The position numbers and the translations under genes were made by a program. 64,000 nt of DNA from positions 124,001-188,000 of the forward strand of contig CAACVI010000012.1 in the NCBI GenBank assembly GCA_900659855.1, in the 5' to 3' direction. The first letter of the stretch is position 1, and each line of letters opens with the position of its first letter. The notes under the pieces are model-generated. The model had not been told where the DNA came from. It saw only the letters and a list, made by a program, of their open reading frames with translations, and searched no databases. Positions 8,202-20,173 of the stretch are shown piece after piece. This DNA comes from Candidatus Desulfarcum epimagneticum. Its GTDB lineage: Bacteria > Desulfobacterota > Desulfobacteria > Desulfobacterales > CR-1.

Positions 8202-9449
8202 CTACATCATCTCAAGCGCGCACGCCATGGAGATTCCGCCGCCCCCGCACAGGGTGGCCAGGCCGAGGGTTTTTCCCCTCTTTTTCATGGCGTGGATCAG
8301 GGTGATCATGATCCGGGCGCCGGTGGCCCCCACCGGATGGCCCAGGCCGATGCCCGACCCGTTGACGTTGGTGATCTCCCGGTCCAGGCCGAGCTGTCTT
8401 TCGCAGCCGATGTACTGGGCCGCGAACGCCTCGTTCACCTCCACCATCTCGAAGTCCTTAATGGCAAGGCCGCTTCTTTCCATGAGATCATTGACCGCCG
8501 GCGTGGGCGAAAGGCCCATGATGGCCGGATGGCAGGCCCCTCTTCCCACGGCCTTGATCCGGGCCAGGGGAGAAAGGCCCAGCTCTTTGGCCTTTTCCTC
8601 CGACATGATCATAATGGCGGCGGCGCCGTCGTTAAGGCCGCTGGAATTTCCGGCCGTCACCTTCCCGATTTTGGGCACAAAGGCCGGGGGAAGGGAGCTG
8701 AGCTGATCCATGGTCAGGCCGGGCCTGAAATGCTCGTCTTTGTCGAAAATAATCTTTTTCTTCCTTTTCACCAATTCCACCGGAACGATTTCCTCGGCGA
8801 ATGACCCGTCGTTCGTGGCCCTTTCGGCTTCGTTCTGGCTTCTGAGCGCCACCTCGTCCATCTCCTGCCTGGAGATGTCCAGATACTGGGCCACAAATTC
8901 GGCGGTGTGCCCCATGATGTAGGGTTTTCCCTTAAAAAAGCTCAGGGGGGCCTCATCGGCGTTCACCGGTCCGGTTTCGGGATGGGGAATGAGGTAGGAG
9001 CCGCAGTGAAGGGCGCGGATCATGGAATCCACAAACACCTGGTCCTGGAGACGGCATCCCCATCTGGCCGAGGGAACGGTGTAGGCCGCGCCCGACATGT
9101 GCTCCACGCCGCCGGCCAGGATCACGTCGGCCATCTCGGCCTGGATCATGGCCATGCCCGATATCACGGCCTCCATGCCCGATATGCAGACCCGGTTGAT
9201 GGTGGCCGCCGTGATGGAGTCCGGGAATCCGGCCATCAAAGACCCCACCCGGGTGGTGTTAAGGGAATCGGCGTGCTCCAGGCAGCAGCCGAAACGGATG
9301 TCGCCGATGATTTCGGGATCCACGCCCGCCCTTTTCACGGCCTCCTTCATGACGACGCTCGCAAGATAAGGGCCGTTGGAGTCCCTCAGGGTTTTGCCGA
9401 AGGCCCCAATGGCCGTTCTGCAGGCGGACACAATCACTACGTCTTTCAT
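8202..9449 (-). CDS. Acetyl-CoA acetyltransferase / thiolase
   Basis: Condenses or cleaves beta-ketoacyl-CoA thioesters in the cytoplasm. The 415-residue form starts at the ATG at 9449 (MKDVVIVSACRTAIGAFG) behind AGGAG. The longer frame to 9563 adds non-homologous residues and runs into ubiX. The catalytic set is intact: nucleophilic Cys88 in NRVCISGMEA, His371 in GLGHPVGATGAR and Cys401 in ATLCGGGG. The AGNSSGLNDGAAA loop is conserved. It lies downstream of ubiX in the Mo-hydroxylase region, so a role in a CoA-thioester catabolic route is likely, but the chain-length preference cannot be read. Confidence 0.92.
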   Translation of the reverse strand: MKDVVIVSACRTAIGAFGKTLRDSNGPYLASVVMKEAVKRAGVDPEIIGDIRFGCCLEHADSLNTTRVGSLMAGFPDSITAATINRVCISGMEAVISGMAMIQAEMADVILAGGVEHMSGAAYTVPSARWGCRLQDQVFVDSMIRALHCGSYLIPHPETGPVNADEAPLSFFKGKPYIMGHTAEFVAQYLDISRQEMDEVALRSQNEAERATNDGSFAEEIVPVELVKRKKKIIFDKDEHFRPGLTMDQLSSLPPAFVPKIGKVTAGNSSGLNDGAAAIMIMSEEKAKELGLSPLARIKAVGRGACHPAIMGLSPTPAVNDLMERSGLAIKDFEMVEVNEAFAAQYIGCERQLGLDREITNVNGSGIGLGHPVGATGARIMITLIHAMKKRGKTLGLATLCGGGGISMACALEMM

Positions 9450-9531
9450 AAAACTCTCCTTTTTTTCTTTTGAAAATTTCGGTTTTTTCCCAATCCATCC
9501 AAAAAAACAAACCCGCCCCAAACGCCGCCTT

Positions 9532-10164
9532 TTATTGACATCGCAGACGGTCCCAGCTTTCAAACAGGTCGTGGGGGATATGGAGCAGGTTTAAAATTTT
9601 TCCCACGATAAAATCGATGATATCGTCCACGGTTTTGGGACGGGTGTAAAATCCCGGGACCGGCGCCAGTATGTCCGCGCCGAACCGGGCGGCCTTAAGC
9701 AGGTTTTCCAAATGAATCGCGCTCAAAGGCGTCTCCCTGGGAACGATGACGCATTTTCTTTTCTCCTTGATCGCCACATCACACAGCCGGGCGATCAGCG
9801 AGTCTCCATGGCCGTTGACGACGCAGGACAGGGTCTTCATGGAGCAAGGCGCCACCACAGCGGCGGAAAACGCCGTGGACCCGCTGGCCATGGGCGCGAA
9901 AAAATCGTCATTTTCATACTCGTTTAAGAGAGGATTGTCAAAAAGAAACTTTTTTTTCTCAAAAAGCGTTTTCAAATCGACATATTTTTCATCGTTTTCA
10001 AAAAGCTCATATTCGATGATCCGCCTGGCCGCGGACGACACGGCGCACTGGACCTCGCGTCCGGTTTTCAAAAGCTCCTCCACCAGCCGGATTCCGATAA
10101 TGGGGCCGCTGGCGCCTGAAATCCCCACACAAATGACGTCTTTGTCCGATTTTTTATCCGTCAT
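9532..10164 (-). CDS. ubiX: UbiX-family flavin prenyltransferase
   Basis: Makes prenylated FMN, the cofactor of UbiD-type (de)carboxylases, from FMN and dimethylallyl phosphate. The ATG at 10164 (MTDKKSDKDVICVGISGASG) has GGAGAAG in front and is preferred over the longer frame to 10188. Signatures of the 210-residue protein are the flavin loop GISGASGPIIGIRLVEELL, the middle CSMKTLSCVVNG strand and the C-terminal PRETPLSAIHLENLLKAARFGADILAPVPGFYTRP block. It overlaps the start side of yqeC by 11 nt, so the two are probably co-transcribed. No ubiD is in the window, so the client decarboxylase must be elsewhere. Confidence 0.92.
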   Translation of the reverse strand: MTDKKSDKDVICVGISGASGPIIGIRLVEELLKTGREVQCAVSSAARRIIEYELFENDEKYVDLKTLFEKKKFLFDNPLLNEYENDDFFAPMASGSTAFSAAVVAPCSMKTLSCVVNGHGDSLIARLCDVAIKEKRKCVIVPRETPLSAIHLENLLKAARFGADILAPVPGFYTRPKTVDDIIDFIVGKILNLLHIPHDLFESWDRLRCQ

Positions 10165-11020
10165 GTCTTCTCCCCGGGTTGAAATCATATATCCTGGCCG
10201 CCGGGGGATTCCCCAGCGCCTGTCCGATCACCGCCCGGTCCGGGACCCGGCCTTTCATCCGCGCCATGGCCGCGCATACCCTCCGTCCCGTCTCAAGCCG
10301 CTGGGGATCGCCGGCCATGTTCAAAAACGCGATTTTGACGGCCCGGGCCGGGGCGCCTTTCATGATTCCTTTCTCATGAACGATGGAGACGGCCGCCGAT
10401 TCCCCGGACACGGGATCGCCGGGCGCCAGGCCCGACAGCCGGCCGAAGAGCCGGGAGCGGAACACATGGGCCTCGGCGAGAGGCTTGCCGATGTTTTTAA
10501 GCCCCAAAACCCCGATGATCCACTCCGATGAGGACGGAATCACGGGCTCGTGGGGCGCGGGGGCCTTGATGGGCTTCATGGCCGCGCCGTCGGCTTCGAT
10601 GATGATCCATTTAAAGAGGCCCGTCGCCGCCACCTCGTCGATAAATTCCGGCGAAAACCCCGTCAGTTTGCCCGGCCTTTCCATGGAGCCGGGACCCGAT
10701 CCGGCGGAAACATGCGGGCTTTTTTTTAATATTTTTTTCGCCCGCCGCGCCAGGTCATCGGGGGAATCCGCCCATATGACATGGCGCGACTGTTCCCAAG
10801 ACGGCTTGCGAATTCGGGTGGTGGTGGCGGTGAGAACCGAGGCGCCCTCTTCCGAAAGCTCCCGGGCCAGTCGGAACATCAGGCTGGTCTTTCCCCCGGC
10901 TCCCACGAGGCTCACCACCCCGCCGTCTTTTAAAAGAAACGACTCTTTAAGCCTTAACGACCGGCATGAGACGGCCCGGATTTCCCGCATTTTTCCCGAG
11001 CTTCCCTCCGCGCCGGACAT
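10154..11020 (-). CDS. yqeC: YqeC-type accessory protein for molybdenum hydroxylases
   Basis: YqeC-family P-loop protein that comparative genomics ties to maturation of selenium-dependent molybdenum hydroxylases; its chemical role is not settled. The 288-residue frame shows the nucleotide loop LVGAGGKTSLMFRLA, the TATTTRIRKP strand, IIEADGAAMKPIKAPAPHEPVIP and IGQALGNPP near the C-terminus. The start is uncertain: ATG 11020 (MSGAEG) overlaps the upstream gene by 67 nt, while ATG 10990 (MREIRAV) has GGAGGG about 14 nt ahead. It sits between the YqeB-MeaB fusion and ubiX on the same strand. Confidence 0.85.
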   Translation of the reverse strand: MSGAEGSSGKMREIRAVSCRSLRLKESFLLKDGGVVSLVGAGGKTSLMFRLARELSEEGASVLTATTTRIRKPSWEQSRHVIWADSPDDLARRAKKILKKSPHVSAGSGPGSMERPGKLTGFSPEFIDEVAATGLFKWIIIEADGAAMKPIKAPAPHEPVIPSSSEWIIGVLGLKNIGKPLAEAHVFRSRLFGRLSGLAPGDPVSGESAAVSIVHEKGIMKGAPARAVKIAFLNMAGDPQRLETGRRVCAAMARMKGRVPDRAVIGQALGNPPAARIYDFNPGRRHDG

Positions 11021-12612
11021 GGCCGGCGCTCGATGATATCGGCGTAAATATCGTCAAAGCCGATTCCTTTTTTTGAATCGCACAGCCGGACCGCCGGCTC
11101 CCGGCGCCCCCCCCGCCTGTCGCGGGGCGTTCCCATCCGGATGGCGGCCGCAAGGTCGGACTTCATTCTTTCCGCGCCCTTGATATCGCTTTTGTTCACC
11201 GCGAAAATGTCCGCGACCTCCATGAGCCCGGCCTTCATGGCCTGGATGATGTCTCCTCCCTCGGGCGTGGTCAGCGCGATGACCACATGGACCGCGTCCA
11301 CGATGTCCATATCCAGCTGGCCGGCGCCCGCCGTTTCGATCAAAACCACGTCTTTGCCCGAGGCGTCCAGCACATCGGCCGCTTCCCGGGCCCGGGCCGA
11401 AAAAGCGCCCCGGGCGCCCCGGGAGGCCATGCTGCGGATAAACACCCCCCTGTCCGCGGCCAGATCCCTCATCCGGATCCGGTCCCCCAGCATGGCTCCC
11501 CCGGAAAAGGGGCTGGTGGGATCCACGGCCACCACTCCCACCGTGAAATTTTTTTCCCGAAACCGCTGGCCCAGGCAGTTTAAAAAAGAGCTTTTCCCCG
11601 CGCCCGCAGGGCCCGTGACGCCCACCCTGAGCGCCCCGCCGACGCGGGGGGCGATGGATTTCAGGATTTCCCTCGCCCCCGGGGCCTCGTTTTCGACAAT
11701 GTCAATGGCCCGGGAAACGGCGGCGGGCGCTCCCGAAAGCGCGCGGGCGGCCAGGTCTGAAATTTCCCCGGACGAAGTTTCAAAACATCCGACCCGGGGC
11801 GAAGAGGGGCGCGGCCTTAAAACCGCCTCCAGAACCGACCCGGAAACGGCTCGGGCCTTGTCTGAAATGGCGTCGCAAAACGAAGGGTCGTTCCGGGGAT
11901 CAATGTCGCCCATCTTCATGTTCAACGGCGCCTTTGTCCCGGTTCGGACCAGCCCCCGGACCACCCCGTCTATCTCGGCGATCATCTCTTTTCCGCCCAC
12001 CGTACCGGCCGGCTCCCCTGCGCTGATCCGGTCCCCGATTTCAACGGCGGCCTCAAACACCCCTTCGGCCGGGGCCCTGAGCACCCTTTTCAAAGCGTGG
12101 CCCCCGATCCTGCCCGGAATCCCGGTGTTGGGCGCCGCGAATCCTTCGGTGATAATCCGGCCCAGATGATGGCCCCGGGCGGTCTCGATGACCATATGCG
12201 CGTCCCGGCCGGCCTCAAAGCCGGGACCCAGGGCGAGGGTCAAAGGGGCGTCGTCAAGACCGGTCCCCAGGTTCTTTTTGGCCAGTATGGCGTCCAGCGC
12301 CACATCCGGGCGCATACGCGAAATCATGTCCCACCGGGGATCCGCCAAAACCGCGATATGGCCCCTTTCCCATGCCCGGCGAATCCCGGCCTCATCCGAG
12401 ACCCGCGACGCCCGAACCCCTTCCACGGTCCGGCGTTTCTCATAAACCGCCTCGCAGAAAGACACCCGGCGCCTCACCGCCGAAGGATGGGAGGTCTCCA
12501 TCATGAAAACACGGCGAATCCCGGCCATATAAAGCCGCCACGCCGCGGCGCTGGCCATTTCCCCGGCGCCTTTGATCCCCACGATGATGTCTTGGCGTCT
12601 TTTTTGAATCAT
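10954..12612 (-). CDS. YqeB-like domain fused to MeaB/ArgK-type GTPase
   Basis: A 552-residue two-domain protein if started at ATG 12612; the frame extends to 12651, but that stretch runs into repeat copy 2. Residues about 8-270 match the YqeB/EF2563 family linked to selenium-dependent molybdenum hydroxylases: IVGIKGAGEMASAAAWRL, RVFMMETSHPSAVRRRVSF, GPGFEAGRDAHMVIET, GRIGGHALKRVLRAPA. Residues about 290-530 match the MeaB/ArgK G3E-type GTPases: Walker A GPAGAGKS (334-341), AVDPTSPFSGGAMLGDRIRM, LIETAGAGQLDMDIVDAV, GGDIIQAMKAGLMEVADIFAVNKSD. MeaB normally guards cobalamin mutases; here no mutase is nearby. The fusion suggests GTP-dependent assembly of the neighbouring Mo enzyme (inference). 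Confidence 0.88.
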   Translation of the reverse strand: MIQKRRQDIIVGIKGAGEMASAAAWRLYMAGIRRVFMMETSHPSAVRRRVSFCEAVYEKRRTVEGVRASRVSDEAGIRRAWERGHIAVLADPRWDMISRMRPDVALDAILAKKNLGTGLDDAPLTLALGPGFEAGRDAHMVIETARGHHLGRIITEGFAAPNTGIPGRIGGHALKRVLRAPAEGVFEAAVEIGDRISAGEPAGTVGGKEMIAEIDGVVRGLVRTGTKAPLNMKMGDIDPRNDPSFCDAISDKARAVSGSVLEAVLRPRPSSPRVGCFETSSGEISDLAARALSGAPAAVSRAIDIVENEAPGAREILKSIAPRVGGALRVGVTGPAGAGKSSFLNCLGQRFREKNFTVGVVAVDPTSPFSGGAMLGDRIRMRDLAADRGVFIRSMASRGARGAFSARAREAADVLDASGKDVVLIETAGAGQLDMDIVDAVHVVIALTTPEGGDIIQAMKAGLMEVADIFAVNKSDIKGAERMKSDLAAAIRMGTPRDRRGGRREPAVRLCDSKKGIGFDDIYADIIERRPCPARREAREKCGKSGPSHAGR

Positions 12613-12677: not shown

Positions 12678-13697
12678 TCATTTCCCGAAGGAACACTCCG
12701 GATACCGACACGTCTCGCAGTTCAGGCAAAGCCCGCCGTGGCCCATTTCGGCGATATCCTTCTTTGTGATCTCATCTCCGGCGAGAATGCGCGGAAAAAT
12801 CAGGTTGAAAACAGTGGCCCGGTGGTAATAGACGCACGCGGGAAGACCGATGATGGGAATCTCGCCCAGGCGGGCATACAAAAACATGGCGCCGGGGATC
12901 ACCGGCGATCCGTAGGCCACGAGTTTGGCCCCGGCTTTTAAAACCCCTGTCCGGGTCACATCGTCCGGATCCACGGACAGGCCCCCTGTGGCGATGATCA
13001 TGTCGCATCCCATTCCCACCAGGCGCCCAATGGCCCCGGCGATGGCCGAGGCGTCGTCCGGGACCACGATCTTTTTTTCAATGTCCTGTCCAAAGGAGGC
13101 CGCGGCCTTTTTCACGTACTCGTCGAACTCGTCGTAAATCAGCCCGTTGTAAATCTCCGTGCCGGTGACCACCGCGCCGATTTTAAACGTCCGGTAAGGC
13201 ATGATCCGCAAAACGGGGTGATGCCGGGCCGCCACGGCCTCGAACCGGTCCATCTTCTTTTTGGAAATGGTCAGCGGAATGATGCGGGCGGCGGCCACAG
13301 TCCGGCCCGTTTCGCAGGGAAAATGGGTTTTAAGGGTGGAGACAATGATATCGTCAATCCGGTTGATCTTCAAAAGACCCGCCGCGTCCACCTTGAGGAT
13401 CCCCGGGAAACGGGCGGTCATGGCCGACTTTCCCTCCGAAGGCTCGGTCCATTCAAGGCCCGGCCCGGACACGGCCCGGCATATCCTCAAAGCGGCGGCG
13501 TCTTCGTGGATCCGGGACTCGGAAACCTCCAGGGCGTAGATATGGTTTTTCCCGATCCGCTTCAATTCAGGAATGTCCTCTTCCCGGATGATATGGCCTT
13601 TTTTAAAGGCCGGACCCTTGAAACGCCCGGGGACGATCCGGGTCACATCGTGGGCCAGGGCCATGCCCAGGGCTTTTTCAACTTTGACTTTTTTCAT
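12678..13697 (-). CDS. MoeA-like molybdopterin-binding protein with Cys tail
   Basis: A 339-residue protein with the MoCF-binding fold of MoeA/MogA. Signatures include RIVPGRFKGPAFKKGHII, TGTEIYNGLIYDEFDE, IIATGGLSVDPDDVTRTGV and GAMFLYARLGEIPIIGLPACVYYH. It ends in a cysteine cluster, GGLCLNCETCRYPECSFGK, suited to a metal or redox site. This type is common beside molybdenum-hydroxylase accessory genes; by analogy it prepares or inserts the molybdopterin cofactor. The preferred start is ATG 13697 (MKKVKVEKALGMALAHD); the frame opens at ATG 13727, which would overlap the divergent mocA start. The gene is followed by the YqeB-MeaB fusion across repeat copy 2. Confidence 0.87.
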   Translation of the reverse strand: MKKVKVEKALGMALAHDVTRIVPGRFKGPAFKKGHIIREEDIPELKRIGKNHIYALEVSESRIHEDAAALRICRAVSGPGLEWTEPSEGKSAMTARFPGILKVDAAGLLKINRIDDIIVSTLKTHFPCETGRTVAAARIIPLTISKKKMDRFEAVAARHHPVLRIMPYRTFKIGAVVTGTEIYNGLIYDEFDEYVKKAAASFGQDIEKKIVVPDDASAIAGAIGRLVGMGCDMIIATGGLSVDPDDVTRTGVLKAGAKLVAYGSPVIPGAMFLYARLGEIPIIGLPACVYYHRATVFNLIFPRILAGDEITKKDIAEMGHGGLCLNCETCRYPECSFGK

Positions 13698-13720
13698 AAA
13701 ATGGGTTTTACTTTCCTCCC

Positions 13721-14422
13721 ATGTCATTCAAACGCAATGTCTCAAAAAACAGGGGCCTGAAAAAAAACACGGCCGGAATCATCCTGGCCGCGGGGATGTC
13801 GAAACGTTTCGGCTCGCCCAAGCAGCTGGCCCGCATACAGGGCGAGCGCATGATCAACCGGGTGATAGACGCCTGCCTCGACTCAAACCTGGATCCCGTC
13901 GTGGCGGTTTTGGGGGCGCGCTTTGACGCGGTTTTGGCCGCCATCGGGGAAAGGGTCCGCTCGCCGCGCCTGGCAGTGGCGAGAAACTTCGCCTACCGGC
14001 AGGGGCTGAGCGCGTCCCTTCGAGCCGGCCTGGGGGCGCTGAAATCCCCCGGCCCGGTCATGTTTGTCCACGGCGACCAGCCCTTTGTCAGCGCCGCCGT
14101 CATCAATGAGATGCTGGAAAAATTCAACGCCTCCGACAAACAAATCTGCTTCCCCGCGCTCGGCGGAAAACAAAAAACGCCGACGCTTTTCAGCGAGACG
14201 TTTTTTTTCGACCTCCTGGGGGTCACAGGCGACGCCGGGGCCCGGGAGATCATCCGCCAAAACCTTTCCGAGGCCCTGGTTCTGGAGATGAAAGCCCCCC
14301 TCCCCTTTTTCGACATCGACACCCCCGAAGACCTGGAGCGCGTCCGGTCTTATCTTAAAAATCCCGCCGGGATCAGCACAAGCCCCGGGAAAAGCATCAG
14401 CAAAATGACGCACAGCACATAG
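13721..14422 (+). CDS. mocA: MocA-like molybdenum cofactor nucleotidyltransferase
   Basis: Transfers CMP (or a related nucleotide) to molybdopterin to make the dinucleotide cofactor used by xanthine-dehydrogenase-family enzymes. The 233 residues have the MobA/MocA glycosyltransferase-like fold: GIILAAGMSKRFGSPKQLARIQGERMI, VFVHGDQPFVSAAVI and DIDTPEDLERV. The domain ends near residue 210; the extra tail (NPAGISTSPGKS...) is encoded opposite the last codons of the DctM gene. It is the only plus-strand gene of the cluster. No clear ribosome-binding site precedes ATG 13721, and its start lies only 23 bp from the start of the divergent MoeA-like gene. Cytidylyl versus guanylyl specificity is inferred from context. 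Confidence 0.88.
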   Translation: MSFKRNVSKNRGLKKNTAGIILAAGMSKRFGSPKQLARIQGERMINRVIDACLDSNLDPVVAVLGARFDAVLAAIGERVRSPRLAVARNFAYRQGLSASLRAGLGALKSPGPVMFVHGDQPFVSAAVINEMLEKFNASDKQICFPALGGKQKTPTLFSETFFFDLLGVTGDAGAREIIRQNLSEALVLEMKAPLPFFDIDTPEDLERVRSYLKNPAGISTSPGKSISKMTHST

Positions 14423-15654
14423 GCGGGCAGGAAATAGGCCACCCCTTTGAACACCTCCTCAAGGGGAAGCCCCTTGGCCATTCCCCCCACCACATAGGTG
14501 GTGGCGCCCACCGGCGGGGTGACGGCACCCAGGGTGGTGACCACGGTGATGGTCACCCCGAACCACACCGGATCGTATCCGAGCTGGATGGCCACCGGGA
14601 AAAAAATCGGGATGGTGATCAAAAGCAGCGCCAAAGCGTCCATGACCGCCCCGCCGATGATATAAACGGTGAATATGATGGCCATGACCCCCCAGCCGCT
14701 GATGGGAAGCCCGGCAACCCAGGACGCGATGTCAAAGGGAATCCGGGTAACGGCCAGAAACCGGCCGAATATCATGGCCCCGGCCACGATCACCATCACC
14801 ATGCATGACACCCGGAGGGTGTCGCTCACGGCCGCCACAAACCCCTTCCAGCTCAGACGTCTCTGGGCGGCGGTGATCAGGATCGCGAACAGGGACCCCA
14901 CGGCCCCGGCCTCGGCCGGGGTGAAAAAGCCGAAATAAAGGCCGGCCATCACCAGGGAAAAAAGAACGATCATCTCAAAGGCGCCGGAAAGGGAGGCGAT
15001 TTTCTCCATAAAAGTCGTTTTCGGCCCCGCCGGCCCCCAGTCGGGATGAATCCGGCAGATCAGGTATATGGAAAGAGCCAGAAGCAGCGTAAGCAGGGCC
15101 CCGGCCCCGATTCCGCCATAAAAAAGACGGGCGATGGACTGTTCGGTGGACAGCCCGATGATGATCAGCACCACGCTGGGGGGAATCACCACCCCCAGGG
15201 TGGACCCGCATGCGATGGCTCCGGCGCTGAGCCTGGGGTTGTATTTGTACTTGTCCATCTGGGGCAGGGCCACGGTGGTCATGGTGGCGGCGGTGGCGGC
15301 GTTGGAGCCGCATATGGCGGCAAAGGCGGAGCAGGCCGCCACCGTGGCCATGGCCAGACCGCCCCGGATGTGCCCCACCCACCTGTAGGCCGCCTGGTAG
15401 AGTTTTTCATTGACCCCGGAATAAAACGCCACCTGTCCCATGAGAATAAAAAGCGGGATCACGGTGAGGCCGTATTTGGAAAAGGTTTCCCATAACACAG
15501 AGCCGACCATGTTCAGCCCGGCCTTGAAGGACACCACATAACAAAATCCCAAAAATCCCACCAGGGCCATGGCAAAGCCCACCGGCATGCCGAACAGAAA
15601 AAGGATTAGAAGAAGAATCACAATCCCCGAAACGCCCACAAACGCAAGACTCAA
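14350..15654 (-). CDS. TRAP transporter large permease (DctM)
   Basis: Twelve-helix TRAP permease that carries the substrate across the inner membrane. I place the start at TTG 15654, which follows GGAGGAGAAAG at good spacing and overlaps the DctQ stop as TTGA. This gives 434 residues beginning MSLAFVGVSGIVILLLILFL, the normal family length. The frame up to 15726 adds a basic, non-homologous stretch. Signatures include FALWETFSKYG-like VLWETFSKYGLTVIPLFILMGQ, CGSNAATAATMTTVALPQM and GAVTPPVGATTYVVGGMAKG. Its last 73 bp overlap the mocA 3' end in convergent orientation. Confidence 0.93.
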   Translation of the reverse strand: MSLAFVGVSGIVILLLILFLFGMPVGFAMALVGFLGFCYVVSFKAGLNMVGSVLWETFSKYGLTVIPLFILMGQVAFYSGVNEKLYQAAYRWVGHIRGGLAMATVAACSAFAAICGSNAATAATMTTVALPQMDKYKYNPRLSAGAIACGSTLGVVIPPSVVLIIIGLSTEQSIARLFYGGIGAGALLTLLLALSIYLICRIHPDWGPAGPKTTFMEKIASLSGAFEMIVLFSLVMAGLYFGFFTPAEAGAVGSLFAILITAAQRRLSWKGFVAAVSDTLRVSCMVMVIVAGAMIFGRFLAVTRIPFDIASWVAGLPISGWGVMAIIFTVYIIGGAVMDALALLLITIPIFFPVAIQLGYDPVWFGVTITVVTTLGAVTPPVGATTYVVGGMAKGLPLEEVFKGVAYFLPAYVLCVILLMLFPGLVLIPAGFLR

Positions 15655-16142
15655 CTTTCTCCTCCTTTTTTTGGAAAAAAAGACGACATAAAATCCACGA
15701 AAAGCCCGAAGGACAAAACCAGACATCCGAAGGCCACCGCGTAGGTGAAGGGATAATAAATGATCCGAAGCGTCTCGGTCACCTCATGGGTCCTCATGAG
15801 ATTGGCGGCTTTAAGCGCGACCTGCCACGCCACAATGAAAAAAAAGACGGCGCACACCGCGTGGTTGACAACGCGGAAAAAGGCCCGGACTTTGGCCGGG
15901 AAGGAATTGAGCAGCACATCCACGGCGATGTGGCCTTTTTTCATCTGGGTGTGGCCCAGGGCAAAGGCCGCCGCCAGCGCCCCGAAATATCCCATCAGCT
16001 CAAAGGTCCCCTTGACCGGCACCCAGACCATGCGAAAAAAAATATTCGAGCACGTCAGCGCCATCATGGCCACCAGGAAAATCCCACCCATGAACACCAG
16101 GATCCGGTTCACCCAGTCATTGATTTTTTCCAGGACACGCAT
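15651..16142 (-). CDS. TRAP transporter small permease (DctQ)
   Basis: Four-helix small subunit that pairs with DctM. The 163 residues show the expected hydrophobic segments at about 13-35, 45-65, 85-108 and 130-155, and the family block NIFFRMVWVPVKGTFELMGYFGALAAAFALGHTQMKKGHIAVDVLL. Its stop codon TGA overlaps the TTG start of DctM, so the two are translationally coupled. It follows the binding-protein gene after about 115 nt. Confidence 0.9.
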   Translation of the reverse strand: MRVLEKINDWVNRILVFMGGIFLVAMMALTCSNIFFRMVWVPVKGTFELMGYFGALAAAFALGHTQMKKGHIAVDVLLNSFPAKVRAFFRVVNHAVCAVFFFIVAWQVALKAANLMRTHEVTETLRIIYYPFTYAVAFGCLVLSFGLFVDFMSSFFPKKGGES

Positions 16143-16257: not shown

Positions 16258-17280
16258 TCAGCGGGCGTGTTTTTTGATCAACGCCTGGATATCGCTCACA
16301 ATGGCTTTTCCGGGAAGGCCCTTTTCATTGGCCTTGGCCACCCATTTTTCAGTGAGGAAGCCCAGTTTGGCGTTCCAGTCGGCCTTGACGACTTTGGGAA
16401 GCCGGATCAGCTCCAGGCCCTGCTCGTCCAACGCCCATTTCACGGCGTCTTCCACGTGCTGGTCCATGTATTCCCCGGTCCAGAGAGACTGCTCCCGGAT
16501 CAGGTCGTTCATGACCTTTTGAACGTCCGCGGACAGCGCGTTCCAGGAATCCATGTTCATGACCACCGCGAAGGGATAGATGACCGTGTCGGTCATCGTG
16601 ACGTATTTGCACATCTCGGCGAACTTGAAGTCCTTGATGCTTTCAAGGGAGGAGAAAAGCCCCTTGACGACACCTTTCTGAAGGGCCTCCACCGTGGCCG
16701 GCATGGGCATTCCCACCGGATTGGCGCCCCAGGCGCTCAAAATCTGGGCCGCGCCCCCCGAAGCCCTGAGATCCAGCCCCTTGAGGTCCGCGAGGGTCCG
16801 GACCGGAACCTTGGACACGATATTGGCCGGCGCCGTGGTGAACATGGCCAGCACCTTGACTTTGGCGAAAGGCCCGGGTTTGTATTTGTTGTAAAGGTCC
16901 AGAAGGGCCAGGCTCCCGGTCTTGGCGTCGGGAATGCCCAAAGGAAGCCCCGTGGCGTTGGTCACGATGAACCGGCCGGGCTGGTAGGCCATGCACAGGC
17001 ATCCGATATCGGCCTGGCCCGCGATGACGCCGTCCATCATATTCTTGGCGCCGAGCAGGGTGCCGCCCGGGTATGTGTTGATCACCACCTTGCCGCCCGT
17101 CCGTTTTTCCACCTGGTTTTTCCACCTCTCCATCTGGACCGACGGGAAAGTGGGGGCCGGAGGAAAGTTGGCGTATCTTAAAAGAGTCGGCCCGGCCCAG
17201 GCGCGGGGCGCATGGCAAAAGGTCCAGGAAACAGCGGCCATAAAAAACACGGCGGTTAACAAAACAAGCTTTCTTTTCAT
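16258..17280 (-). CDS. TRAP transporter solute-binding protein (DctP family)
   Basis: Periplasmic receptor of the DctPQM system. The 340 residues start with a clear signal peptide (MKRKLVLLTAVFFMAAVSW..., cleavage near RAWA-GP). The mature protein shows the DctP hallmarks: LRYANFPPAPTFPSVQMERWKNQVEKRTGGKVVINTYPGGTLLG, GVIAGQADIG, the Arg anchor in LKGLDLRASGGAAQILSAWGANPVGMPMPATVEALQKGVVKG, and a helical C-terminus. It lies just downstream of the Mo-hydroxylase genes, so it may import the hydroxylase substrate (inference). The exact ligand is unknown. Confidence 0.92.
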   Translation of the reverse strand: MKRKLVLLTAVFFMAAVSWTFCHAPRAWAGPTLLRYANFPPAPTFPSVQMERWKNQVEKRTGGKVVINTYPGGTLLGAKNMMDGVIAGQADIGCLCMAYQPGRFIVTNATGLPLGIPDAKTGSLALLDLYNKYKPGPFAKVKVLAMFTTAPANIVSKVPVRTLADLKGLDLRASGGAAQILSAWGANPVGMPMPATVEALQKGVVKGLFSSLESIKDFKFAEMCKYVTMTDTVIYPFAVVMNMDSWNALSADVQKVMNDLIREQSLWTGEYMDQHVEDAVKWALDEQGLELIRLPKVVKADWNAKLGFLTEKWVAKANEKGLPGKAIVSDIQALIKKHAR

Positions 17281-17378: not shown

Positions 17379-19679
17379 TTAGGGTTCGGTTTCCCGGCTT
17401 TCCGAATCCTGGTTTTTTTGTCTCTGTATCCCGGCAAGCGCCTTTTCAGGCGTGATGGGCAGAGATTTGACTCGCGCCCCCACCGCGTTGTAAACGGCGT
17501 TGGCGATGGCCGGGGCGGACGGAACGCACCCGGGCTCGCCGATGCCCTTGGCTCCGTAGGGCCCGTGGGGGTCCAACGTCTCGATGACCGGGGCCTTGGC
17601 GGGAAACACGTCCTTGGCGGTGAGAATTTTATAATCCCTGAAATTGGGATTGGCGAATTCCCCGTCTTTCATGATCAGCTCTTCGGTCAGGGCGTAGCCG
17701 GCCCCCATCATCACGCCTCCGTAAACCTGGCCGTCCAGGAGCATGGGATTGATAGCCTTTCCTACATCATGGGCGGCCACATAGTCAAGAATTTTCACTT
17801 TCCCGGTCTCTTCGTCCACCTTCACCCGGACCCCGTGGACCCCGAAGGCGTAGGTCATGGACATGTTCCCTTTAAAATCCTTTCCCATGTTCTCATTTTC
17901 GGGGTCATAGAAAAACTCCGACATGAGCATCTGTCCGTTTTTCGAAAAATGGGCCTTTCGAAGCAGCTTGCCGATTCCCACGCTTTTTTCCGGATCATTC
18001 ACAGCAAAGACCCGGCGCTCCCGAATCTCGATGTCCCCGGGGTCCGCGTCCAAAAGCCCGGCGGCGTATTCCACCAGACGCTCCTTGATCTTTCGGGCCG
18101 CTCCCAGGGCCGAGTTTCCGGCCACAAAGGTGGTTCGGCTGGCGTGGGCCCCCACGTCCCAGGGGCACACGTCCGTGTCCGTGTGGATGACGCTGACATC
18201 CTCCAGCAAAACCCCCAGCTCCTCGGCCACGATCTGGGCCACGATGTTGTCCGCGCCCTGCCCCATGTCCGTGGCGCCCGTGAACACGCTGACTTTTCCG
18301 TAATCGTCCATTTTTAAAATGGTTCCGCAGCCATCGGATTTGTATATCCGGGCGCCGCCCCCCACATGAATCAGGGAGGCCATTCCCACCCCCACGCCCT
18401 TTTCCCGGGGCTGGTCCCATCCCAGCTTCTCGGCCATCTCTTCCATGCACCGCCCCATCCCGCAGGAGGAGATCTCAAGCCCCTGGGGGGTGACGTCTCC
18501 GGACTCGTTCTGATTGATTCTTCTGAACTCCAGGGGATCGATCCCCGCGGCCTCGGCCAGCATGTCCATGGAGCTTTCAATGGCGAAAGTGGCCTGGGGA
18601 TTGCCGTATCCCCTCATGGCCTGGGCGTAGGTGTTGTTGGTGTACACGCATTTGGCTTTGTACCGGACGTTTTCCACGCGGTACAGGGAGGTGATGGGCA
18701 TCATCATCACGGTGGGGGTGGTGGCCCCCCAGGAGGTGTAGGCGCCGTTGTCCAGGATCATGGACATGTCTCGAAAGAGCAGTTTTCCGTCGGCGTCGCA
18801 TCCCTGGCGAATTTTCGTGAGGGTGGGCTGACGGGCGGACGTGGCCGTGAACTCCTCTTTCCGGTTAAACAGAATCTTCACCGGCCGGCGGGCGTGAAAG
18901 GCCAGAAGAATGGCGATGTGCTCATAGGCGTAGGTGTCGAGCTTGCTTCCGAATCCCCCCCCGATGCAGGGCTTGACGACCCGGATTTTTTTGCCCGAAA
19001 GCCCCATTTCCTTCAGCGCTTCGGAAAAATCCTTATGGGCCAGGGACGGAATCTGGGTGTTGGTCCATATGGAGAGATTGTTGGAGAAATCAAACTCGGC
19101 CACGGCGCCGCTTGTCCCCAGGCAGCAATGGGTGACCCATGTGGTGGAAAAGGAATCCTCCACGCAAAAAGCCGCCTTTTCGGCGGCGGCGTCCACGTCC
19201 CCGTAATGGAGTTTCCAGGGGAGTTTGAGCACATTGCTTTTGGCCTCTTCGTGGATCAGGGGCGCGTCGTCTTTCATGGCCTCCACCGGGTCGAAAACGC
19301 CCGGAAGGGGACGGTATTCCACCCGGATGCGCCCAAGGGCCTCGGCGGCGACTTCCGGGGACACGGCGGCCACGGCCGCCACTTCGTCCCGAATGGAGCG
19401 GACTTTCCCGGATTTGATGGGGGGGTTGTCCTTGTAAAACCCCATCTTCATGCCCGGGGGAACGTCCCGGCCGGTCAGAACCACCTTGACCCCGGGAATC
19501 TTTTCGGCCTGAGAGGTGTCGATGTTCAAAATGTCGGCGTGGGCATGCTCACTGTAAAGAATTTTTCCAAAAAGCATGCCCGGAAGGGTCACATCCTGGA
19601 TGTAGCGGGCCCGGCCCGTGGCTTTGTCAATGGCGTCGAGTTTGGGAACGCCGCGACCGACAACGGAAAACGTTTTCAT
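17379..19679 (-). CDS. Xanthine-dehydrogenase-family molybdopterin-binding subunit
   Basis: Catalytic Mo-binding subunit of a two- or three-subunit hydroxylase/reductase, 766 residues. Visible sites are GGGFGSK (240-246), the substrate-channel Arg in AMRGYGN (354-360), GATDMGQGADN (468-478) for the cofactor, and catalytic Glu715 in GPYGAKGIGEPG. Length and motifs resemble 4-hydroxybenzoyl-CoA reductase and related CoA- or N-heterocycle-acting enzymes more than xanthine dehydrogenase, but substrate cannot be assigned. The start ATG overlaps the stop of the [2Fe-2S] subunit gene as ATGA. No FAD-binding middle subunit is encoded in the window. It is probably expressed with the downstream TRAP genes. 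Confidence 0.93.
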   Translation of the reverse strand: MKTFSVVGRGVPKLDAIDKATGRARYIQDVTLPGMLFGKILYSEHAHADILNIDTSQAEKIPGVKVVLTGRDVPPGMKMGFYKDNPPIKSGKVRSIRDEVAAVAAVSPEVAAEALGRIRVEYRPLPGVFDPVEAMKDDAPLIHEEAKSNVLKLPWKLHYGDVDAAAEKAAFCVEDSFSTTWVTHCCLGTSGAVAEFDFSNNLSIWTNTQIPSLAHKDFSEALKEMGLSGKKIRVVKPCIGGGFGSKLDTYAYEHIAILLAFHARRPVKILFNRKEEFTATSARQPTLTKIRQGCDADGKLLFRDMSMILDNGAYTSWGATTPTVMMMPITSLYRVENVRYKAKCVYTNNTYAQAMRGYGNPQATFAIESSMDMLAEAAGIDPLEFRRINQNESGDVTPQGLEISSCGMGRCMEEMAEKLGWDQPREKGVGVGMASLIHVGGGARIYKSDGCGTILKMDDYGKVSVFTGATDMGQGADNIVAQIVAEELGVLLEDVSVIHTDTDVCPWDVGAHASRTTFVAGNSALGAARKIKERLVEYAAGLLDADPGDIEIRERRVFAVNDPEKSVGIGKLLRKAHFSKNGQMLMSEFFYDPENENMGKDFKGNMSMTYAFGVHGVRVKVDEETGKVKILDYVAAHDVGKAINPMLLDGQVYGGVMMGAGYALTEELIMKDGEFANPNFRDYKILTAKDVFPAKAPVIETLDPHGPYGAKGIGEPGCVPSAPAIANAVYNAVGARVKSLPITPEKALAGIQRQKNQDSESRETEP

Positions 19680-20173
19680 GGCTCCCTCTTTGACTGGCTC
19701 GAAGTGGTTATGGCGGCGGCGGCCGCCTTTACCGATTCAATGATCTGGACATACCCTGTGCACCGGCAGATGTTTCCCGCCAGCGCGTGTTTGATCTCCT
19801 CCTCGTCGGGGTCGGGGTTTTCGCCCAAAAGGGCGCCCGATGACATGAGCATGCCCGGGGAGCAGAACCCGCACTGAATCCCGCCGTTTTCAACAAAGGA
19901 TTTCTGGAGGGGGTGAAGGGTCCCGTCCGGGGCCGCCAGGCCCTCCACGGTGGTGATCTTTTTGCCGTGGGCCTCCGGGGCCGGATAAATGCACGAGTTG
20001 ACGGCCGCGCCGTCCACAATGACCGAGCACGCGCCGCATTCGCCGCTTCCGCAGCCCTCCTTTGATCCCTTAAGACCCAGTTTTTCCCTCAAAAGATACA
20101 GCAGGGTCCAGTTTTCCTCAATCTCCACCGTCACCTTTTCATTGTTTAAATCCATGACGATCTTTTTTGACAT
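19676..20173 (-). CDS. [2Fe-2S] subunit of the molybdenum hydroxylase
   Basis: Electron-transfer subunit with two [2Fe-2S] clusters, 165 residues. The plant-ferredoxin-type cluster uses Cys41, Cys46, Cys49 and Cys61 (EGCGSGECGACSV...NSC). The second cluster uses Cys101, Cys104, Cys136 and Cys138 (QCGFCSPGM...NICRCTG). All eight ligands are present. It is the first gene of the hydroxylase unit and overlaps the large subunit by ATGA. GGAGG-type ribosome-binding sequence precedes ATG 20173. Length is typical for the family. Confidence 0.95.
   Translation of the reverse strand: MSKKIVMDLNNEKVTVEIEENWTLLYLLREKLGLKGSKEGCGSGECGACSVIVDGAAVNSCIYPAPEAHGKKITTVEGLAAPDGTLHPLQKSFVENGGIQCGFCSPGMLMSSGALLGENPDPDEEEIKHALAGNICRCTGYVQIIESVKAAAAAITTSSQSKREP

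Follow-up and report, generated by a model that had tools for sequence, protein, structure and literature searches.

Apart from the protein described here, GTPase helpers of the MeaB type are, to our knowledge, known only from vitamin B12 enzymes. MeaB (MMAA) is the chaperone of methylmalonyl-CoA mutase, for which a role in holding and releasing the mutase has been proposed; its residues D182, Q185 and K188 are reported to link the hydrolysis of GTP with the transfer of the cofactor, K188 and Q185 reaching the nucleotide from the second protomer (PMC9974510). In xanthine dehydrogenase, the apo-enzyme is held open until the sulfurated cofactor is inserted and closes afterwards, and the mode of control of this insertion was unidentified in 2010 (PMC2997495). 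Of the routes by which selenium is used, the one into the labile-selenium molybdenum hydroxylases is understood least (PMC11448449). YqeB (EF2563, TIGR03309), which NCBIfam labels 'selenium-dependent molybdenum cofactor biosynthesis protein', had been described in the first-pass annotation of this DNA as linked to these hydroxylases by genome context and as having no known activity. The second of these statements is slightly dated, as deletion of yqeB in C. difficile reveals a requirement in selenium-dependent growth on purines: the benefit of uric acid is abolished and that of xanthine severely reduced, like in a selD mutant (PMC11448449).

In the window, that is, the whole stretch of 64,000 nucleotides analysed, YqeB is joined to a MeaB-type G domain. 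The protein shares with known YqeB a full-length profile match, the yqeC, mocA and hydroxylase neighbours and the presence of selD in the genome, but differs by its C-terminal MeaB domain, the known YqeB fusions being with XdhC. It has in common with MeaB/MMAA the sequence family, the P-loop, switches I to III (D182/Q185/K188) and the ExxG and NKxD motifs; it differs by the attached YqeB, the molybdenum operon, the lack of a mutase nearby and, in two of four copies, a missing dimerisation arm. IcmF (isobutyryl-CoA mutase/G domain) likewise has a MeaB-type G domain built into the other polypeptide of a maturation pair; there, however, the G domain is joined to the enzyme itself, and here to a protein accessory to a molybdenum enzyme. 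Finally, the role considered below resembles that proposed for the Mo cofactor chaperone XdhC/CoxI, namely holding the finished cofactor and inserting it into enzymes of the xanthine oxidase family, although XdhC/CoxI has no GTPase domain. Kinship between YqeB and XdhC was unsupported by profile comparison at the depth used: the fusion has no Pfam XdhC match, and hhalign of YqeB against XdhC sets gave a probability of 1%. In a literature search that covered few subscription journals, no paper dealt with YqeB and MeaB together, and YqeB with ArgK returned one unrelated genome paper, so that the fusion is undescribed in the literature searched, as the annotation had supposed.

The fusion gene and its neighbours

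The genes of the region and the parts of the fusion are as follows.

9532 to 10188, minus strand: UbiX-family flavin prenyltransferase, overlapping the end of yqeC
10154 to 11020, minus strand: yqeC (TIGR03172), with a P-loop-like VGAGGKTS; likely start at about 10990, overlapping the end of the fusion
10954 to 12612, minus strand: YqeB-MeaB fusion gene, stop-free, 552 amino acids from the ATG at 12612
11026 to 11730, minus strand: MeaB-type G domain (TIGR00750/PF03308), without the MeaB C-terminal dimerisation arm
11743 to 11814, minus strand: interdomain linker of about 30 residues, variable in length and sequence among the four fusions
11815 to 12576, minus strand: YqeB domain (TIGR03309), opening with the Rossmann-like motif IKGAGEMASA (12547 to 12576)
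12678 to 13727, minus strand: MoeA-like protein with MoCF domain (PF00994, profile match), upstream of the fusion
13721 to 14422, plus strand: mocA-like Mo cofactor cytidylyltransferase (TIGR03310, E 6.5e-44, 150 bits, below the cut-off of 186)
14350 to 15726, minus strand: TRAP transporter large permease DctM (profile match)
15651 to 16142, minus strand: probable TRAP small permease, from position only, with no family match
16258 to 17280, minus strand: TRAP solute-binding protein DctP (profile match)
17379 to 19679, minus strand: molybdenum hydroxylase large subunit (xanthine oxidase family)
19676 to 20173, minus strand: hydroxylase [2Fe-2S] small subunit

The minus-strand gene at 10954 to 12612 encodes a single polypeptide consisting of YqeB, a linker and the G domain. 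Its open frame runs from 12651 to 10954 (565 codons, with TTG at the 5' end), and 12612 is the first usable ATG, in agreement with the start first assigned; the plus strand contains several stops at these coordinates. On the 565-codon frame, the NCBIfam profile TIGR03309 matches residues 26 to 279 (321 bits, E 4e-96, against a curated cut-off of 220 bits) and is covered from position 3 to 255 of 256. TIGR00750, the NCBIfam MeaB profile, matches residues 308 to 542 (250.1 bits, E 2e-74; curated cut-off 240.75 bits). This second half also matches Pfam MeaB (PF03308; 237.5 bits versus a cut-off of 23.1, E 2e-70), and the solved chains closest to it come from MeaB/ArgK structures, for instance 2P67 (E 1.6e-43) and 2QM7. 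With both profiles above their curated cut-offs, the reading of the gene as YqeB joined to a MeaB/ArgK-type G protein is confirmed. AlphaFold gave a pLDDT of 34 for the YqeB half when run without an alignment; given an alignment restricted to MeaB relatives, it folded the MeaB half mostly with confidence (blocks of pLDDT 75 to 98) and the YqeB half without.

The fusion gene sits between yqeC and the MoeA-like gene, close to mocA, the TRAP transporter and the hydroxylase. All the neighbours named at first sight (yqeC, MoeA-like, mocA and the hydroxylase) were recovered, the hydroxylase with both its subunits, and the DctP/DctM TRAP genes besides. Downstream of yqeC (8202 to 10188), the UbiX-family gene is followed by a thiolase gene, the ends overlapping; UbiX was absent from all other yqeB loci examined, and this window-specific gene is probably outside the Mo maturation system.

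Recurrence and origin of the fusion

YqeB scored above the cut-off in 89 of 389 genomes of the same class, and the domain search among these found the fusion in four: the window's own (G000) and three more (G072, G308 and G091), belonging to four different families of the order. Both halves exceed their curated cut-offs in all four. The false fusion by sequencing error that the annotation had kept in mind is rejected, since the relatives carry the same two domains in frame rather than as two genes, in four independent assemblies. A frameshift concealing the C-terminus of the window's MeaB is likewise rejected: yqeC and the end of the fusion overlap, and with the P-loop of yqeC so close behind there is no room for it. 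No fusion beyond the window's own was found among 395 genomes drawn from the phylum, nor any relative of the fusion protein in genome_contigs or of YqeB in viral contigs.

The neighbours of the fused loci are the hydroxylase, yqeC, mocA, the MoeA-like gene and XdhC, the last adjacent in G072 and in G091. Most of the operon recurs at three loci; the fourth, in G091, is on a short contig with yqeC and XdhC. The fusion is missing from the 85 other genomes with a full YqeB, and is not general to YqeB biology. Because about ten near-identical clusters, which match in hydroxylase type, TRAP genes and mocA, run with plain YqeB, the G domain is an addition and not a core part.

A tree built from 51 MeaB domains groups the four fused ones in a single clade (support 99/99). 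This clade lies in a branch with free MeaBs of KSB1, Ignavibacteria, Chloroflexi and archaea, far from the canonical MeaB of the order itself (branch 1.9). A single clade of the YqeB halves was not rejected (AU p 0.85). Since the four MeaB halves group together, the fusion appears to have arisen once, and a single event is the simplest account of these trees; its presence in four families and absence from most others then implies loss or transfer.

A free MeaB adjoining yqeB, as a possible ancestral state, was seen neither in 60 neighbourhoods of unfused yqeB nor around the best 80 free MeaBs of named genomes, in scans of named genomes that left out those nearest to the window's. In one genome (G043, locus L270, 6210 to 9292), a mutase/MeaB operon adjoins a cluster of yqeB and a double hydroxylase; hydantoinase-like genes extend as far as 13286. 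MeaB could have been captured next to yqeB from neighbours of this kind; the sister of the fused clade is not the MeaB of G043.

State of the GTPase half

We numbered the fused domains on M. extorquens MeaB (2QM7 sequence), on which the published R20, R25, R33, D92, K106, E154, D182, Q185, K188 and K189 fall on the correct letters. The motifs of the window's G domain are listed below.

11587 to 11613, minus strand: P-loop GPAGAGKSS, K68 equivalent kept
11470 to 11526, minus strand: switch I VDPTSPFSGGAMLGDRIRM, D92 equivalent kept
11317 to 11337, minus strand: switch II ETAGAGQ, with the E154 equivalent and the ExxG of G3E GTPases
11233 to 11259, minus strand: switch III GGDIIQAMK, D182, Q185 and K188 equivalents kept (PMC9974510)
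11185 to 11196, minus strand: guanine-specificity motif NKSD (G4)

All four fusions keep the equivalents of K68, D92, E154, D182, Q185 and K188 unchanged. The Asn of NKxD (N201) is kept in three, G072 alone having His. In 86 free MeaBs of the same type, 70 positions reach a conservation of 90% or more, and all four fusions retain 55 of these unaltered, while whole-domain identity of the window's G domain to such free MeaBs is 37 to 45%. A nucleotide site conserved despite this low identity points to selection for a working site, and the fused G domain is, judging from these residues, probably a working GTPase. The C-terminal dimerisation arm is missing in the window and in G072, and the full C-terminus is present in G308 and G091. 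The same two armless copies have long end branches in the MeaB half (1.24 for the window, 1.05 for G072), i.e. they evolve fast. Since in MeaB it is the second protomer that supplies switch III, copies without the arm could have an impaired switch III.

The question arises as to which protein the G domain serves. A mutase was found neither in the window nor at the fused loci, and every neighbour of the fusion belongs to the biology of the Mo cofactor and the hydroxylase. The mutases of the four genomes can do without the fused domain, since each genome encodes one or more free MeaBs as well as an IcmF-like mutase with a built-in G domain; in the window's own genome, the gene of the separate MeaB overlaps that of a mutase. 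The consistent pairing with mutases that the annotation had considered is therefore not what these loci show. Residues of the mutase contact are partly altered in the fusions, R20 being lost in all four and R25 in G072; these changes do not decide the client, since free MeaBs of the same type vary there too. Switch I is the same as in mutase-type MeaB, and hence gives no indication that it was adjusted for a different client.

A possible role of GTP in cofactor loading, and alternative readings

Several observations suggest an insertion step timed by GTP: the molybdenum operon, the need for yqeB in C. difficile, the fusions of YqeB with XdhC, the open form of apo-XDH and the holding role proposed for MeaB. 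YqeB seems to join with maturation partners, as it is frequently fused to XdhC elsewhere (PMC2276186) and, in G311, to YqeC. A GTP-powered checkpoint is also plausible in view of the catalytic and switch residues kept. We consider it an even call that the fusion is a GTP-gated chaperone or maturation factor, which would load a Mo cofactor, possibly bearing selenium, into the molybdenum hydroxylase. The YqeB half would be the cofactor factor, probably carrying or presenting the Mo cofactor or the selenium ligand to the apo-hydroxylase. The MeaB half, a G3E GTPase, would bind its partner in the GTP state, by analogy with free MeaB and methylmalonyl-CoA mutase; this partner may be the hydroxylase or YqeB's own Rossmann-like part. 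By the same analogy, the partner would be kept open during entry of the cofactor and would close after GTP hydrolysis. Joining the two halves would tie hydrolysis to insertion. We put forward more tentatively, as a little short of an even chance, the fuller statement that a MeaB-family GTPase was recruited from the cobalamin mutases and that its GTP hydrolysis licenses insertion of the finished Mo(Se) cofactor into the hydroxylase. The gate reading is weakened by the 85 of 89 genomes without the fusion, the fast MeaB halves, the lost arm, the His of G072 and the ordinary switch I.

Most of these points would also be expected if the MeaB half were a passenger or scaffold, left from an old fusion with a decaying GTPase and kept as a folding or dimer-forming module for YqeB. 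The two long-branched copies without an arm, the altered NKxD of G072 and the unfused clusters that work without a G domain fit such decay; however, all six catalytic and switch residues persist in the four copies, both fast ones included, the window's copy retains most positions conserved in free MeaBs and two copies retain the full C-terminus. We regard this explanation as unlikely.

Alternatively, the GTPase may not gate entry into the hydroxylase but act before insertion: in concert with YqeC and the MoeA-like protein, it would drive the loading of Mo or selenium onto cofactor bound to YqeB. These two proteins are the immediate neighbours of the fusion, YqeC occupies the C-terminal place in the G311 fusion, and it has a GKT loop and a weak similarity to FtsY (E 0.04). 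Nevertheless, the G311 swap is merely positional, comparison of the YqeC and MeaB profiles returned a short P-loop-like stretch only, at low probability, leaving their kinship unsupported at the depth used, and MeaB is not known to handle cofactor itself (PMC9164220); such an earlier action seems quite unlikely. That the MeaB half still serves a cobalamin mutase, its link with YqeB being a chance joining of neighbours, is very unlikely: switch I, the mutase contact, is that of an ordinary MeaB, the G043 operon proves that such neighbours exist and a mutase lies within the fetched DNA for 37 of 80 related free MeaBs, but the fused loci are mutase-free, every fused genome has other proteins for its mutases and the G043 MeaB is not the sister of the fused domains.

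If the gating of cofactor entry holds true, a checkpoint run by a G3E GTPase would be seen for the first time in a molybdopterin enzyme, and the MeaB chaperones would extend beyond vitamin B12. The fusion, a natural one whose G3E GTPase is apparently intact, offers a testable handle on both selenium entry and Mo cofactor insertion, being one protein with known catalytic residues in a defined operon.

Selenium itself may be part of the cargo. The window's own genome has selD (L050, G000:C12:51993-52922, 368 bits), and selD was found in all four fused genomes, where it may also serve selenocysteine. It carries one in-frame TGA in the five genomes checked, which is probably a selenocysteine codon.

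Other rearrangements were seen in these clusters. The YqeB-YqeC fusion of G311 (L039, 7685 to 9307) has YqeC in the place that MeaB holds in the window. In the window, YqeC (10154 to 11020) combines its P-loop-like VGAGGKTS with an EADGA motif and may, from these motifs, be a nucleotide-binding protein. One open frame in G058 (L218, 5326 to 6693) matches YqeC and then MocA, which suggests a YqeC-MocA fusion in a yqeB/XdhC cluster. In five loci (L175, L180, L198, L207 and L208), the position of the window's MoeA-like gene, between mocA and yqeB, is taken by a conserved gene encoding about 230 amino acids, which looks transglutaminase-like by eye.
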